Shown piece by piece: positions 34,995 through 48,394 of a stretch of DNA of 64,000 nucleotides. Source of the stretch: Alphaproteobacteria bacterium (lineage in GTDB: Bacteria > Pseudomonadota > Alphaproteobacteria > Micropepsales > Micropepsaceae); the NCBI GenBank assembly GCA_947467345.1, contig CANIHD010000001.1, forward strand, positions 124,001 to 188,000, given 5' to 3'. A model generated the notes under the pieces. The model did no database searches, was not told the origin of the DNA, and worked only from the letters and a program-made list of their open reading frames with translations. Both the position numbers and the translations under genes were made by a program. Position 1 is the first letter of the stretch. Each line of letters opens with the position of its first letter.

Positions 34995-35720
34995 TCAATT
35001 GGCTTTCGCTGCCGGCGCGAGCGCTTCCGGCGACGGCCAATTCCACACGATATCGCCTTTCAGTTCGGCGGCGAGGAAGCGCGCATGCGCTTCGCGTTCG
35101 CCAGCGTCGAGACGATCTTCCAGCGGAATCGGCCTTGGCCGCGCTATACGCACGACGTTTTGCGCCAAATCCGCAACCCCGTCGCCGGGTGCCAATTCGA
35201 GCCTCGCCTGACGGCCGCCGACGAGTTCCAGATAGACCTCGGTGAGAAGATCGGTATCGATCAGCGCGCTATGTTTGGTGCGCGCCGACAGATCGATGCT
35301 GAACCGGCGGCAGAGCTCGTCCAGCGAATAACGTGAGCCTGGAAAGCGGCGTTTGGCGATCGCGATGGTGTCGATCGCGCGCGACAGCGGCAATAATGGT
35401 TTGCCGCAACGCGTGAATTCGGCATTGAGAAATTTAATATCGAATTCCGCGTTGTGGATGACCAGCGTCGAATCGCCGATAAAAGCCAGAAGCTCATCGA
35501 CAATAGCCGCAAAGAGCGGCGCTTCGGCGACCTTATCCAGCGTGATTCCATGAATCCGTATCGATTCTTCCGGAATGTCGCGTTCGGGATGGATCAGCGT
35601 ATGAAAAACCTTGCCGGTACGGACATGGTTTTCCATTTCGATGCAGCAGACTTCGATAATCCGATGGCCGGACGACGCATCAAGGCCGGTTGTTTCCGTA
35701 TCGAGGGCAATTTCCCGCAA
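34995..35720 (-). CDS. dnaQ: DNA polymerase III epsilon subunit
   Basis: A 241-residue 3'-5' proofreading exonuclease. DEDDh motifs are visible: REIALDTETTGLD (ExoI), VIHNAEFDIKFLN (ExoII), and KHSALIDTDLLTEVYLEL (ExoIII, His and Asp). The C-terminal tail beyond residue 190 is variable, as usual for the part that contacts the polymerase. It lies 3 bp after the aroE-coaE fusion and is part of the same leftward operon. Confidence 0.96.
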   Translation of the reverse strand: MREIALDTETTGLDASSGHRIIEVCCIEMENHVRTGKVFHTLIHPERDIPEESIRIHGITLDKVAEAPLFAAIVDELLAFIGDSTLVIHNAEFDIKFLNAEFTRCGKPLLPLSRAIDTIAIAKRRFPGSRYSLDELCRRFSIDLSARTKHSALIDTDLLTEVYLELVGGRQARLELAPGDGVADLAQNVVRIARPRPIPLEDRLDAGEREAHARFLAAELKGDIVWNWPSPEALAPAAKAN

Positions 35721-35723
35721 AAT

Positions 35724-37232
35724 CTATTTCCCTTTAGGCGCACGGTTTTTCGTTACGCGCTCGCGTAAATCTGACACGACGCGCTCGACCATAGCAGACG
35801 CGTGCGCGAGGCCTTCGCCGGTTTCAACAATATAGTCCGCTTTTGCACGCTTTTCAGCGTCGGGGGTTTGACGGGCTGCAATCGCCGCAAATTTCTCTTC
35901 CGTCATTCCAGACCGCGCCATCACCCGCTGGCGTTGGACTTCTCCTGGCGCGGAAGCGACGACGATCACATCGACCTCCTTCTCACTCTCCGTTTCGAAC
36001 AAAAGCGGAATATCGAGAACCACGATGTCGTGGCCCTCACCCAGCGCCCGCGCCAGGAACTCCTCCCGTTTGGCGCGCACCAAAGGATGGACGATCGCAT
36101 TCACAAGCTCGAAAGCCGATGGATCGGCGGTCAGATGTTTCGCCAAAGCCGCGCGGTCTACCGCCTCGCCCATCACGACATTTGGAAATGCCGCTCGCAG
36201 CGGATCCACAGCGGCACCCTTCGCGCCGTAGAGGTCATGCACAACATTGTCGGAATCATGAACGGGAATACCGAGACGTCCGAACATCTTACCGGTTTCG
36301 GTTTTGCCCATGCCGATGGAACCGGTGAGACAAACGACCAAGGGACGACGCGCGCCCATCTCTTTGTGCTTCGGCTTCGCCGACAGCGCGTCTTCCAGTT
36401 CGCTGCGCAAATCCGCAGTGACTTCGGGCAAAACGCCGAACCAGGCCGCAAATGCCGGCACGGCCTGATGCATCAGCATGCCCAGCCCATCCACAATCCT
36501 GTTGCCGCGCGCGCGGGCGCGCACCAGAAGATCGGTCTGCAGCGGGTTGTAGACAATATCCGCGACAATGGCGGATTTCGGCAGCGCGCCTAGCGGCAAG
36601 TCCAAGCGATCTTTGCCGGTCATGCCAAGCGCAGTGGTGTTGACCAGAAGATTGGCGCCTGAAAGCGCAAGATCCCGTTCGGTCCAATCGAGTGCCGAAA
36701 TATTTGCCTGTCCCGCGAATAATCCCGCCAGCGCTTCCGCGCGCGGCTTGGTGCGGTTGAGAATACGGATCTCTTTGACGCCCAAACGGATGAGCGCCAA
36801 CGCGATGGACCGCGCCGCGCCGCCGGCGCCCAGTACAACGGTGGGACCTTTGCGGATGGCAGTGGCACCGACGCTTTGCTCCAGATGCGCGGCGAAACCG
36901 CGGACATCGGTGTTGTGTCCGTGAACAACGCCGTCCCGGAACACCAGCATATTGACCGCGCCCGTCGCCTTGGCGTCTTCGTCTAGAACCGAGGATAGCG
37001 CGAAGGCGGCTTCCTTATGCGGCACAGTGACATTGGCGCCGACAAAACCCATCAGTGGCAAAATCCCGATCACCTTGCCGAAATCCTCCGGCTTCACGGG
37101 AAGCGCTACGTAGGCGCCCGCTATCTCGTGTTGCCGCAGCCAATGCCCATGAAGGATGGGCGACATGGATTGGCGGACCGGCCAACCGATGACGCACGCC
37201 AATTTGACCCCGGAGGAGACCGGCTCGCTCAT
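35724..37232 (-). CDS. Fused shikimate dehydrogenase and dephospho-CoA kinase
   Basis: A 502-residue single frame carrying two complete enzymes. Residues 1-285 are AroE: VIGWPVRQSMSPILHG, NVTVPHKEAA (catalytic Lys), GHNTD, and the NADP-binding VVLGAGGAARSIALAL. After a short linker, KPKHKEMGARR, residues 296-495 are CoaE: P-loop TGSIGMGKTETG at about 303-314, HDSDNVVHDLYG and VLDIPLLFET. The two genes are adjacent but separate in Caulobacter. The internal ATG at 36359 has a poor ribosome site (AAAGAG directly abutting), so fusion is the simplest reading. The gene overlaps maf by 4 bp. Confidence 0.92.
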   Translation of the reverse strand: MSEPVSSGVKLACVIGWPVRQSMSPILHGHWLRQHEIAGAYVALPVKPEDFGKVIGILPLMGFVGANVTVPHKEAAFALSSVLDEDAKATGAVNMLVFRDGVVHGHNTDVRGFAAHLEQSVGATAIRKGPTVVLGAGGAARSIALALIRLGVKEIRILNRTKPRAEALAGLFAGQANISALDWTERDLALSGANLLVNTTALGMTGKDRLDLPLGALPKSAIVADIVYNPLQTDLLVRARARGNRIVDGLGMLMHQAVPAFAAWFGVLPEVTADLRSELEDALSAKPKHKEMGARRPLVVCLTGSIGMGKTETGKMFGRLGIPVHDSDNVVHDLYGAKGAAVDPLRAAFPNVVMGEAVDRAALAKHLTADPSAFELVNAIVHPLVRAKREEFLARALGEGHDIVVLDIPLLFETESEKEVDVIVVASAPGEVQRQRVMARSGMTEEKFAAIAARQTPDAEKRAKADYIVETGEGLAHASAMVERVVSDLRERVTKNRAPKGK

Positions 37233-37828
37233 GGTTTCGTTACGCCTTCGGCACGCAACGCTTCCAGGACCGGCAATAGCGGCATGCCGCGAACGACGAA
37301 TTGATCGCCTCTAACCTCGGAAAAAAGCTGCACGCCCATCGCTTCGATCCGATAGCAACCGACCGAGCCGAGAATATGCTCGCCCTCGACGGCAAGATAT
37401 TGCTCGAGAAATTCTTCGGAAAAACTGCGCATGGTCATGTAGGCGTTCTCGGTGGCGCGCCAGATCGCAGCCCCGTCCCGCGCCAGCACGGCCGCGCTGA
37501 TAAGCCGATGCGATTTGCCGCGCAAGGCGCGCAAGGTTTCGCGCGCGCCGTGCATGTCCACAGCCTTGGTGAAAAGCCGTCCTTCGCATTCGAGGATTTG
37601 ATCGGAGCCTAGGACCACCGCACCTGGGATATTGGCCGACATCGCGACAGCCTTCAATTCCGCCAACGCCGCCGCGATGGCTTCCGGCGTTGCGCTCTGG
37701 GCACGCAATTTCTCTTTGGTCGCGGCTTCATCAACATTCGGCACGATCTTTTCAAACCGAATTTCGGCTCCCGCAAGCATTGCCTGCCGGCTGGCACTGC
37801 CTGATGCGAGGATGAAGCGCGTAGTCAC
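37229..37828 (-). CDS. maf: Maf-family nucleotide pyrophosphatase
   Basis: A 199-residue protein. Motifs are FILASGSASRQAML at the start, LGSDQILECEGRLFTKA, and YLAVEGEHILGSVGCYRIEAMGVQLFSEVRGD. Maf proteins hydrolyse modified or canonical nucleoside triphosphates and affect septation when overproduced. The gene sits between ppsR, 6 bp upstream, and aroE-coaE, with a 4 bp overlap, in the conserved origin-proximal operon. Confidence 0.94.
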   Translation of the reverse strand: MTTRFILASGSASRQAMLAGAEIRFEKIVPNVDEAATKEKLRAQSATPEAIAAALAELKAVAMSANIPGAVVLGSDQILECEGRLFTKAVDMHGARETLRALRGKSHRLISAAVLARDGAAIWRATENAYMTMRSFSEEFLEQYLAVEGEHILGSVGCYRIEAMGVQLFSEVRGDQFVVRGMPLLPVLEALRAEGVTKP

Positions 37829-44660: not shown

Positions 44661-45582
44661 GTGCCGCCCGCGCCTGGTCAAGTGCGAAGCGCTGATGAAT
44701 GGCAATCTTCACCGCGCCTGACAGGATCACAGAAAAGAGATCGGCCGCTGCCTCGCCGATTTCTTCAGCGCTGCGCGTATAGGACGCCAATGTTGGCCGC
44801 GTGAGGAACAACGAGCCTTTATGCGTCAGCGTGTGAATGTCGAGCGGCGGCACCGGGCCCGATGCATTGCCGAAGCAAACCATCAGACCGCGCACCTGAA
44901 GAGAATCGAGCGAGGACTCGAAACTCTCTTTGCCGACGCCGTCATACACAACTGGAACGCCAACACCGCCGGTGAGTTCGCGCACCGTTTTCGCGATCGC
45001 GTCGGTGCGCGAGTTCAGCACGTGTTGGCAGCCATTGGCGCGCGCGAGTTCCATCTTGGCTTCGGAGCCCGCCGTGCCAATCACAATGGCGCCCAGATGA
45101 TTGGCCCATTGGCAAATGATTTGCCCCGTGGCGCCGGCCGCGGCATGCACGAGGATCGTCTGCCCCGGGCGCACAGTGTAGAGCCGCTTCAAGAGGTACT
45201 GGGCGGTGAGACCCTTTAGAAGCGACGCCGCAGCGGTTTCATCGGAAACGCCCTCAGGCACCTTCACGACGCGCCAGGCAGGAATATTTGCCGCTTCCGC
45301 ATAGGCACCGGGGACCATCGCGTACGCCACGCGGTCGCCGGGTTTGAGTGCGGTGCCGGCATTGGGGCCGATCGCTTCAACGATGCCGGCGGCTTCCGAA
45401 CCAATGCCCGCAGGCAACGGCAATTTGTAGAGGCCCGAGCGGTGATAGGTGTCGATGAAATTGACGCCGATGGCCGTGTGCTTCACGCGCACCTGACCCT
45501 CGCCCGGCGGCGGCAGCTCGATGGTTTCGAACTGCATAACCTCCGGGCCGCCGGTCTGGTGAATGCGTATGGCTTTGACCAA
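44608..45582 (-). CDS. NADPH:quinone reductase (zinc-independent MDR family)
   Basis: A 324-residue medium-chain dehydrogenase/reductase. The TTG start at 45582 has AGGAG 8 bp upstream and begins (M)VKAIRIHQTGGPEVM, the standard QOR start. Other motifs are GVNFIDTYHRSGLYKLPLPAGIGSEAAG and the NADPH-binding VHAAAGATGQIICQWANHLGA. It ends ARATTGATVLIP. It lacks the zinc-binding cysteines. It probably reduces quinones or enones, giving some protection against reactive electrophiles. It is 10 bp downstream of a dienelactone hydrolase gene on the same strand. Confidence 0.93.
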   Translation of the reverse strand: MVKAIRIHQTGGPEVMQFETIELPPPGEGQVRVKHTAIGVNFIDTYHRSGLYKLPLPAGIGSEAAGIVEAIGPNAGTALKPGDRVAYAMVPGAYAEAANIPAWRVVKVPEGVSDETAAASLLKGLTAQYLLKRLYTVRPGQTILVHAAAGATGQIICQWANHLGAIVIGTAGSEAKMELARANGCQHVLNSRTDAIAKTVRELTGGVGVPVVYDGVGKESFESSLDSLQVRGLMVCFGNASGPVPPLDIHTLTHKGSLFLTRPTLASYTRSAEEIGEAAADLFSVILSGAVKIAIHQRFALDQARAAHEALQARATTGATVLIP

Positions 45583-45592
45583 GGCGCGGCTC

Positions 45593-46291
45593 CTAACCGA
45601 GATTTTGTTTGAAGAAAGCTTCGGTCCGCGAATTGGCAAGATCGGCGCTGGCCTTGTTGTAATTGTCGCCGGCCGTGCGTGCGAACGCATGATTCACGCC
45701 GGCATAAGAATGCAGCGTGACTTTGGAATTGCCCTTCAGGCCGTCGATAATCTGCGCCTGTGCTTCCGGCGGCACGAATTGGTCGTCGCCGGCGATGTGC
45801 AGCATCAAGGGCTTCTTGATGTTGTTGGCTTCGCCGAGACGCGTTTGAATATAGACGCCGTAATAGCCGACAGTGGCATCAACATCTGTGCGTGTGGCCG
45901 CGAGGAAGGCAAGCTGGCCGCCGAGGCAATAGCCAACGGCGCCGACTTTTCCACTTACGCCCGGAACGCCGCGCAGATGTGTGATCGACGTCTGAATGTC
46001 GGTAACGCCCTTATCGATGTCGAAGCGCTGCATGAAGCCGAATGCCTTCTGCCAATCTTCCGGCGTTTTGTCGGTGAGATTGACGTTGGGCTCCATGCGC
46101 CAGAACAGATCGGGCGCCAGCGCGAAATAGCCACGCGCGGCGTAAGCATCGGCCACTTCCTTGACGAAGGAATTGATGCCGAAGATTTCCTGAATGATGA
46201 TGATGCCAGGTCCCTTGCCCGACGCCGGCGACGCGAGATAGCCGCCGAAACTTCCGTCAGCGCCTTTGAGGGTGATCATCTTTCCGGTCAT
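45593..46291 (-). CDS. Dienelactone hydrolase family protein, copy 3 (cytoplasmic)
   Basis: A 232-residue carboxymethylenebutenolidase-like protein without signal peptide. The triad is visible: Cys in AVGYCLGGQL, Asp in HIAGDDQFVPP and His in YAGVNHAF. N-terminal text includes PGIIIIQEIFGINSFVKEVAD. The normal family reaction is hydrolysis of dienelactone to maleylacetate in aromatic degradation, but many members act elsewhere. It is distinct from the Tat-exported pair at 2717-4784. Confidence 0.92.
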   Translation of the reverse strand: MTGKMITLKGADGSFGGYLASPASGKGPGIIIIQEIFGINSFVKEVADAYAARGYFALAPDLFWRMEPNVNLTDKTPEDWQKAFGFMQRFDIDKGVTDIQTSITHLRGVPGVSGKVGAVGYCLGGQLAFLAATRTDVDATVGYYGVYIQTRLGEANNIKKPLMLHIAGDDQFVPPEAQAQIIDGLKGNSKVTLHSYAGVNHAFARTAGDNYNKASADLANSRTEAFFKQNLG

Positions 46292-46324
46292 GCGTGATTC
46301 CTTTTTCGCTTTGCGTGAAATGAA

Positions 46325-48394
46325 TTAGTTCTGGCCAACCGGCATGGTGGCTTGCTGCACTGGCGTCTGTGCGCGCGGGAGCTGTAGCACCTGACTCAAT
46401 TGCACGGCGCTGGTCACCGCCGGTGAGCAGCTATTGCCCTGACAGATATAAGCGGTCGGTTGTCCGTTCTGCATCGTCTTCCCGAAGGCCGGATGATTGT
46501 TCGGCAGCTGATCTTCCGGCGGCACCACGATGAGCACGCGATTGGGGAGACTTCGTCCCTGCACCGCGTTGATCAGATCATGTGTGCGCGGATCTTTATT
46601 GGGACCGACAATGACAATCTGAATGGCCGAGATGCAGAATTCGAAGCCGCTGAGATAAGTCGGCATCTGCATGAAAGCTTTCGGCGCGTCGCCGGCGAAG
46701 GCGGTGACCAAGGCATTGACGCGGTCGCCATAGGTCTGCTCGCCGGTGATGAAGAAGAGCCGCCCCAGAACTTCGAGCATCATGGCATTCGCCGACGGCG
46801 TCTGATTGTCGAAGGCTGTGCGAATGCGCACAGTGACGGGCTCGTCGCTCGGTGGGCTGAAGGCGTATCCCGAAAGAGCGAGGTCCCAGAAATTCTCGTC
46901 GAGCATGCGCACCCAGGTCTTGGCCCATTCCAGGAAAGTCTTTTCGCCGGTGACTTCCCAAAGGACGAGAGCTGCGCGCGCCATATTCGCATAGTCGTCG
47001 GAGAAGCCCGGCTGGCTGCGCTTGCCGCCGCTATAGCTGTGATAGAGGTCGGTGCCGTTGCCGAGTTTCTCGGTGACGAAATTAAAGGCGCGCCGCGCCA
47101 TATCGATCCAGCGCGGTTCGCGGAACACGGCGCCCGCATTGGCGAGAGCAGCGATCATCATGCCGTTGACGTCGGCGAGAACCTTATCGTCACGTTGCGG
47201 ACGCGGACGGTTTTCACGTGCCTTGAGCAGACGCTGGCGTTGCGTGCGCATCAGATTTTCGTCGGCCTGTGTCAGACCGGGCAACGGAATGAAGCGATGG
47301 AGAATATTCCGCCCCTGGAACATTCCGTCTTTCGTAACGCCGTAAGCCTGTTTGAATCGCGGGATCAGCGTGCCTTGCAGCGCGCTGTCGAGCTCGGCTT
47401 CGCTCCAGGTGTAGAAGCGTCCTTCTTCACCCTCGCTGTCGGCGGAGAGGCTGGATGCAAAGCCAGCGCCTTCGACGAGCATCTCGCGCGCCACCCATTC
47501 GATGGTGTCGTCGAGGCGGTCGCGATACATGGCCTGGCGATTGTGCTGCCAGACAAGCGTCAGCGTATCGATCGTATGCGCGTTGTCGGAAATCATCTTC
47601 TCGAAATGCGGCACCAGCCAACGTTCATCGGTGGCGTAGCGTGCGAACCCACCGCCGACATGATCGTAAATGCCGCCGCGGCACATCGCATCGAGTGTCG
47701 TCAGAACGATCTGGCGAAATTGCGGAATGCCGGAGCGCAAAAATGAGCGCCACACAAAATTCAGCGACGGGACGCTGGGAAATTTCGGCGTGCCGAGAAT
47801 GCCGCCGTAGAAAATGTCATATCGCTGCGCGGTAGCGACGGCGATTTGTTCCAGCGCGAGCACATCCATGCGTCCCGAGCGGTTCTCGCCCCACGCGCGA
47901 TCCATGACCTGCGCGATCTGGCGGATATTCGATTCGATCGATTGCGGATTGTCGCGTTGACGCGCCGCGACTTCGCGCAAAACGGTTTTAAATGCTGGGC
48001 CATTAGGGCCGTCGTTTTTGGGAAAATATGTTCCCGCGAAATAAGGTTCGCCGCGCGGCGTGAGAAACGCGTTCAGCGGCCAGCCGCCGCTCCTGCCGCT
48101 TACGGCAACAGCGGTCTGCAACCAATTGTCGAGATCGGGGCGTTCTTCGCGGTCGACTTTGACCGGAATGAAAAGCTCGTTGATGACATTCGCGGTTTCG
48201 ACGTCTTCGAAGCTTTCGCGGGCCATGACATGGCACCAATGACAAGCCGTGTAGCCCACCGAGACAAGCAGCGGCTTGTTTTCGCGCGCAGCTTCTTCGA
48301 GCGCCTGCTTCCCCCACGGCCGCCAATGCACCGGGTTGTCCTTATGCTGCAGGAGATACGGGCTTGTTTCTTCAGCGAGTTGATTGCGCGACAT
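46325..48394 (-). CDS. YyaL/SSP411-like thioredoxin-domain protein
   Basis: A 689-residue protein. The N-terminal thioredoxin-like domain (DUF255) begins [24 protein letters not shown] and has the redox-like CHWCHVM near residue 50. The C-terminal (alpha/alpha)6-barrel region has [28 protein letters not shown] and [11 protein letters not shown]. Family members resemble glycosidases or epimerases plus a thioredoxin fold; the true reaction is unknown. It is oriented against the flanking rho-mnmE row. Confidence 0.92.

Follow-up and report, generated by a model that had tools for sequence, protein, structure and literature searches.

In the relatives of the uncultured alphaproteobacterium considered here, shikimate dehydrogenase (AroE) and dephospho-CoA kinase (CoaE) are encoded by separate genes, usually direct neighbours. 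In contrast, a single open reading frame in the 64,000-nucleotide stretch of DNA that was analysed (the window) appears to encode both. This arrangement raises the questions whether the fusion is real or an error of assembly, whether its product is one chain or two, and whether the joining of enzymes from different pathways has any functional meaning.

Two enzyme domains in one reading frame

The fused gene lies on the minus strand, where an ATG at 37232 and a TAG stop at 35726-35724 bound the ORF (Table 1). Codons 1-502 contain no internal stop, and the frame is uninterrupted across both domains. The preliminary description had placed AroE and CoaE in a single 502-residue frame, without giving the strand, and had called the linker short; both points hold, with about 10 flexible residues between the two domains. 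This ORF contains two full-length family domains and is not a product of chance.

Table 1. Features of the aroE::coaE locus, in coordinates of the window
Feature	Coordinates	Strand	Basis or remark
aroE::coaE fused ORF	35724..37232	-	502 aa; ORF listing and domain scans
AroE domain, residues 1-285	36378..37232	-	Pfam/NCBIfam, alignment A2, AlphaFold2 ordered to residue 285
Linker, residues 286-297 (SAKPKHKEMGARRP region)	36342..36377	-	AlphaFold2 pLDDT; AroE ends and CoaE starts of relatives map here
Internal ATG, codon 292 (Met292), ancestral coaE start position	36357..36359	-	anti-Shine-Dalgarno energy
CoaE domain, residues 298-502	35727..36341	-	Pfam/NCBIfam, alignments to solved CoaE structures and A2
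maf (Maf-like protein), upstream neighbour	37229..37828	-	Pfam Maf 1.3e-37, profile 1-186/187
dnaQ-type exonuclease, downstream neighbour	34995..35720	-	Pfam RNase_T 8.9e-37, full profile

Both family assignments stand above curated cut-offs. In the N-terminal part, Pfam Shikimate_dh_N (PF08501) matches residues 14-95 (1.9e-20), Shikimate_DH residues 130-200 and SDH_C, under its cut-off, residues 249-271. The NCBIfam AroE equivalog NF001312 covers residues 8-279 with 336 bits (cut-off 295), and the AroE profile TIGR00507 scores 226 bits (cut-off 200). The C-terminal part is matched by Pfam CoaE (PF01121) at residues 298-471 (3.2e-34; 118.6 bits, cut-off 27) and by NCBIfam CoaE TIGR00152 at residues 299-477 (95.7 bits, cut-off 65.6). 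The N-terminal enzyme would thus produce shikimate from 3-dehydroshikimate and NADPH, and the C-terminal one would produce CoA from dephospho-CoA and ATP.

All residues that are invariant in alignment A2, a set of 24 rows into which in-frame relatives were entered by reading through their stop, are kept in the fused protein. Its AroE half retains the catalytic K73 and D109, the substrate residues S22, S24, T69 and N94, and also Q256, invariant in A2. K73 is the counterpart of the catalytic K69 of Mycobacterium tuberculosis shikimate dehydrogenase, in which S18, S20, T65 and N90 are likewise equivalents of AroE residues of the fused protein (PMC2789096). The CoaE half keeps the P-loop GSIGMGKT (residues 304-311, including K310), the DXD motif (residues 326-328, with D326 and D328), L410 and R436. 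In an alignment to 6n39, K310, D328, L410 and R436 correspond to K14, D32, L114 and R140 of M. tuberculosis CoaE, which have been probed by mutagenesis (PMC3019153). Across the two enzymes, the M. tuberculosis counterparts are thus residues that were either mutated or observed in contact with substrate (PMC3019153, PMC2789096). Codon 301 (36330-36332, minus strand), just before the LTGSIGMGK P-loop motif, encodes Cys at a position where Gly is nearly invariant among the CoaE relatives of A2.

The branch of the fused protein in the tree has a length of 0.49, inside the range of the tips of its genus (0.20-0.55), and neither half is therefore decaying. AlphaFold2 yields two confident domains (mean pLDDT 91.6, pTM 0.63), with pLDDT values below 50 only at residues 1-3, 287-294 (linker) and 498-502. 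The model fits a protein in which two rigid domains are joined by a free hinge, the linker 287-294 being predicted to be disordered and the orientation of the domains not to be fixed.

The genome is a draft of 2.49 Mb in 25 contigs, 96.3% complete, and a whole-genome search with the fused protein, PF01121 and PF08501 found no second aroE or coaE, the fused locus being the sole match. This one gene must therefore supply both activities. CoaE is an essential enzyme, and as it is present in a sole copy, the fused gene must deliver its activity, unless the internal start does. Its essentiality has been stated for M. tuberculosis (PMC2765170). As sole copies with catalytic residues kept and a normal evolutionary rate, both the AroE and the CoaE halves look functional.

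Distribution among relatives and origin of the fusion

The fused gene is found in one of the seven genomes of the genus, all of which have matches, and in one of the 93 family genomes with a match. Among the matches listed, it occurs in 1 of 334 in the class sample and 1 of 389 in the phylum sample; both samples have weaker-scoring matches beyond those listed, so that a fusion of highly diverged sequence could have escaped the search. The fusion is also absent from all 80 loci found when one genome per species was scanned for 84,980 species. It is confined to a single genome among the genus, family, class and phylum searches and does not recur in independent genomes. A survey of how widely the architecture is spread, as proposed in the preliminary description, thus places it in this genome alone among those searched, and the statement made there that aroE and coaE are usually separate neighbours is matched by the loci of the relatives. 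Full-length search hits that looked like fusions in relatives were rejected, as each has one in-frame stop at the junction.

In most relatives, the two genes overlap by 4, 8 or 11 bp. In the six other members of the genus, the two genes are read in different frames, with 8-bp or 4-bp overlaps. A common frame interrupted by one stop occurs in 5 of the 93 family genomes and in 22 of the full-length class-sample matches listed; such junctions (loci L005-L009, L002 and L114-L130) are found in a minority of Alphaproteobacteria. With this layout, gene callers or read-through would give the same fusion, and similarity hits look fused until the stop is noticed. The ppsR-maf-aroE-coaE-dnaQ cluster of Alphaproteobacteria resembles the locus in gene families, catalytic residues and gene order, which reads ppsR-maf-aroE::coaE-dnaQ on the minus strand here, with 37-62% identity. 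In contrast with the one ORF of this genome, however, its aroE and coaE are separate ORFs that overlap by 4-11 bp or leave a short gap.

In a tree of both domains, the fused sequence is the first branch of its genus (support 100/99), the other members of which have out-of-frame overlaps. Within the family, there is free variation in the frame of coaE relative to aroE, and layouts that are one base from a fusion exist. Most likely, the fused gene arose by an accidental merging of two operon neighbours that lay very close together and were coupled in translation, giving a "beads on a string" protein. In this group aroE and coaE typically overlap by 4-11 bp or share a frame with only one stop in between, a packing so close that one or two small mutations there could merge them. 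From an out-of-frame overlapping ancestor, a small indel in the last aroE codons, just before the overlapping stop, would fuse the genes, and the old stop would then be free to decay. Substitution of the stop would suffice only if the ancestor was in frame, a layout that occurs elsewhere in the family and not in the six other members of the genus. Both routes appear to fit, and the sequence gives no choice between them. The old overlapping stop has vanished from the sequence, a hint that the event is not very recent. The preliminary description had considered a stop-codon loss fixed in a lineage: such a loss is just one of the two routes, and fixation is not upheld, as no other genome of the genus or family is fused. 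Following the merger, continuous translation would replace the former coupling by termination and re-initiation, fixing a 1:1 ratio of the two enzymes, and the fusion may be selectively neutral.

Alternative readings of the locus

Although it is represented by one draft genome, the locus is probably a genuine, lineage-restricted fusion, one polypeptide that carries two independent enzymes and implies neither channelling nor a new activity. It is improbable that the genes are really separate and that an assembly or consensus error, a wrong base or an indel at the junction, masks the aroE stop. Such an error would be in keeping with a singleton (one genome of 7 in the genus and of 93 in the family) from a draft in 25 contigs. 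Moreover, the GAG of codon 291 aligns near the TAG of L005, an in-frame family relative whose tail reads ALRAKQKQA-stop-G-M where the fused protein reads ALSAKPKHKE-M, and an in-frame stop in which one base had been substituted by error would look identical to a fusion. The indel version is contradicted by a measurement, at 127 comparison loci, of how far the aroE stop lies from the LTGSIG motif of CoaE (P-loop). At every one of the 127, 8 bases or more separate the end of the aroE stop from the motif (median 14), whereas in the fused gene the two other frames next meet a stop at ORF offsets 941 and 1057. These stops lie about 66-68 and 180-184 bases past the internal ATG, which begins at offset 873, and fall more than 35 and more than 150 bases past the first base of the motif. 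If an indel had masked it, the true aroE stop should sit close by in another frame. A single-base indel artefact was therefore rejected, and the fusion is not reducible to an error of this kind at the junction. All flanking genes are intact and match their family profiles over the full length or nearly so, which also argues against a faulty assembly. Only an in-frame substitution would do, and in-frame substitution errors are rare in consensus sequence.

Granting a genuine fusion, the main product is likely, to judge from the sequence, to be a single 53-kDa chain, since the internal site is weak and no upstream frame terminates there. The internal ATG (36359), which the preliminary description had said to lack a good ribosome site, indeed has an anti-Shine-Dalgarno energy of only -0.7 kcal/mol. 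The aroE, dnaQ, tim44 and hemH genes of the window reach -4.0 to -6.6 kcal/mol, and coaE in most relatives -1.5 to -11.3 kcal/mol. The principle that weak start sites can work via termination-re-initiation at gene overlaps has been described (PMC3711429). As no stop lies upstream of Met292, however, re-initiation is impossible, and a start at this codon would have to be made from scratch. It is thus unlikely that a separate CoaE starting at Met292 accompanies the full-length fusion or is the chief product, even though the ATG persists at the ancestral coaE start and the Shine-Dalgarno sequence of coaE is weak in some relatives too (also -0.7 kcal/mol in L015). The CoaE domain, for its part, does not need a start at Met292. 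A functional bifunctional enzyme had also been envisaged in the preliminary description. That both domains look functional agrees with this reading, but nothing points to cooperation between AroE and CoaE. As had been remarked there, the two have no obvious shared substrate: their domain identities assign them to different pathways, with neither consecutive reactions nor a shared intermediate that could be channelled. Metabolic enzymes that are fused often belong to the same pathway, both domains here are intact and under selection, and the adjacency of aroE and coaE is long-standing in the DNA of relatives. An adaptive enzyme, in which regulation or proximity would tie NADPH/ATP-dependent aromatic and CoA synthesis by way of the adenine-ribose-phosphate nucleotides that both use, is nevertheless extremely unlikely: there is neither a common substrate nor a consecutive step, nothing in the disordered linker or the low pTM hints at a fixed interface, and the fusion does not recur in the other genomes checked, whereas a useful one would be expected to recur under selection. 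Very unlikely, too, is an undescribed architecture in which a non-pathway fusion is of functional value to a small-genome, freshwater-type alphaproteobacterium, be it because their stoichiometry is fixed, because the two enzymes stabilise each other, or because nucleotide pools regulate aromatic and CoA synthesis jointly.

Known fusions and genomic surroundings

COASY, the PPAT-DPCK fusion of animals, is a bifunctional enzyme with a C-terminal DPCK domain, like AroE-CoaE, and its partner domain acts one step earlier in CoA synthesis. CoaE is fused to a second domain in the CoaE-UPF0157 proteins as well (NF002879; PDB 6n39), but there the extra domain is C-terminal and belongs to another family, whereas the partner in AroE-CoaE is an N-terminal enzyme. 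The extra domain of the mycobacterial CoaE-UPF0157 (GrpB) protein has been reported to assist folding (PMC2765170). AroE domains joined to a second enzyme are known from the AroD-AroE fusion (dehydroquinate dehydratase/shikimate dehydrogenase; PDB 2gpt) of plants, Planctomycetes, Acidobacteria and some archaea, and from the AroE-AroK fusion of Methanomicrobiales (PMC11237513). These two unite consecutive partners of the shikimate pathway and are widespread in their groups; in contrast, AroE-CoaE is a singleton with a partner from another pathway. Chorismate mutase-AroE (PDB 3fbt) and the pentafunctional AROM (PDB 6hqv) are also multidomain proteins with AroE, but their partners belong to the same pathway. 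In the collection of papers that was searched for shikimate dehydrogenase, dephospho-CoA kinase and fusion together, no relevant report of an AroE-CoaE fusion was found. Within the searched data the architecture is new, and no priority is claimed.

As an accidental merger, AroE-CoaE would be a clean example of overlapping, coupled neighbours becoming one essential protein without a functional link, and it warns against the "Rosetta stone" logic by which fused domains are read as functional partners. If one chain provides the only AroE and the only CoaE of the organism, the tether is tolerated by both enzymes. For annotation, the fused protein should bear the names of both AroE and CoaE.

The maf stop overlaps the ATG start of aroE::coaE by 4 bp (37229-37232), and the dnaQ-type gene begins 3 bases after the end of the fused gene. 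On the plus strand nearby are hemE-hemH-rho and mnmE-mnmG-rsmG-parA, and secB is also present in the region. This gene set, together with a minimum of the cumulative GC skew in the window at about 40-44 kb, places the fused gene in an origin-like region, in agreement with its initial assignment to an origin-proximal operon. Between rho and mnmE, positions 46325-48394 (minus strand) encode a protein of 689 aa whose N-terminus is DUF255/thioredoxin-like and which weakly resembles glycosyl hydrolase family 76. The same origin-proximal cluster contains a 244-codon open frame without a Pfam match (45563-46297, plus strand), which may not be a gene, since a similarly long ORF overlaps it on the opposite strand.
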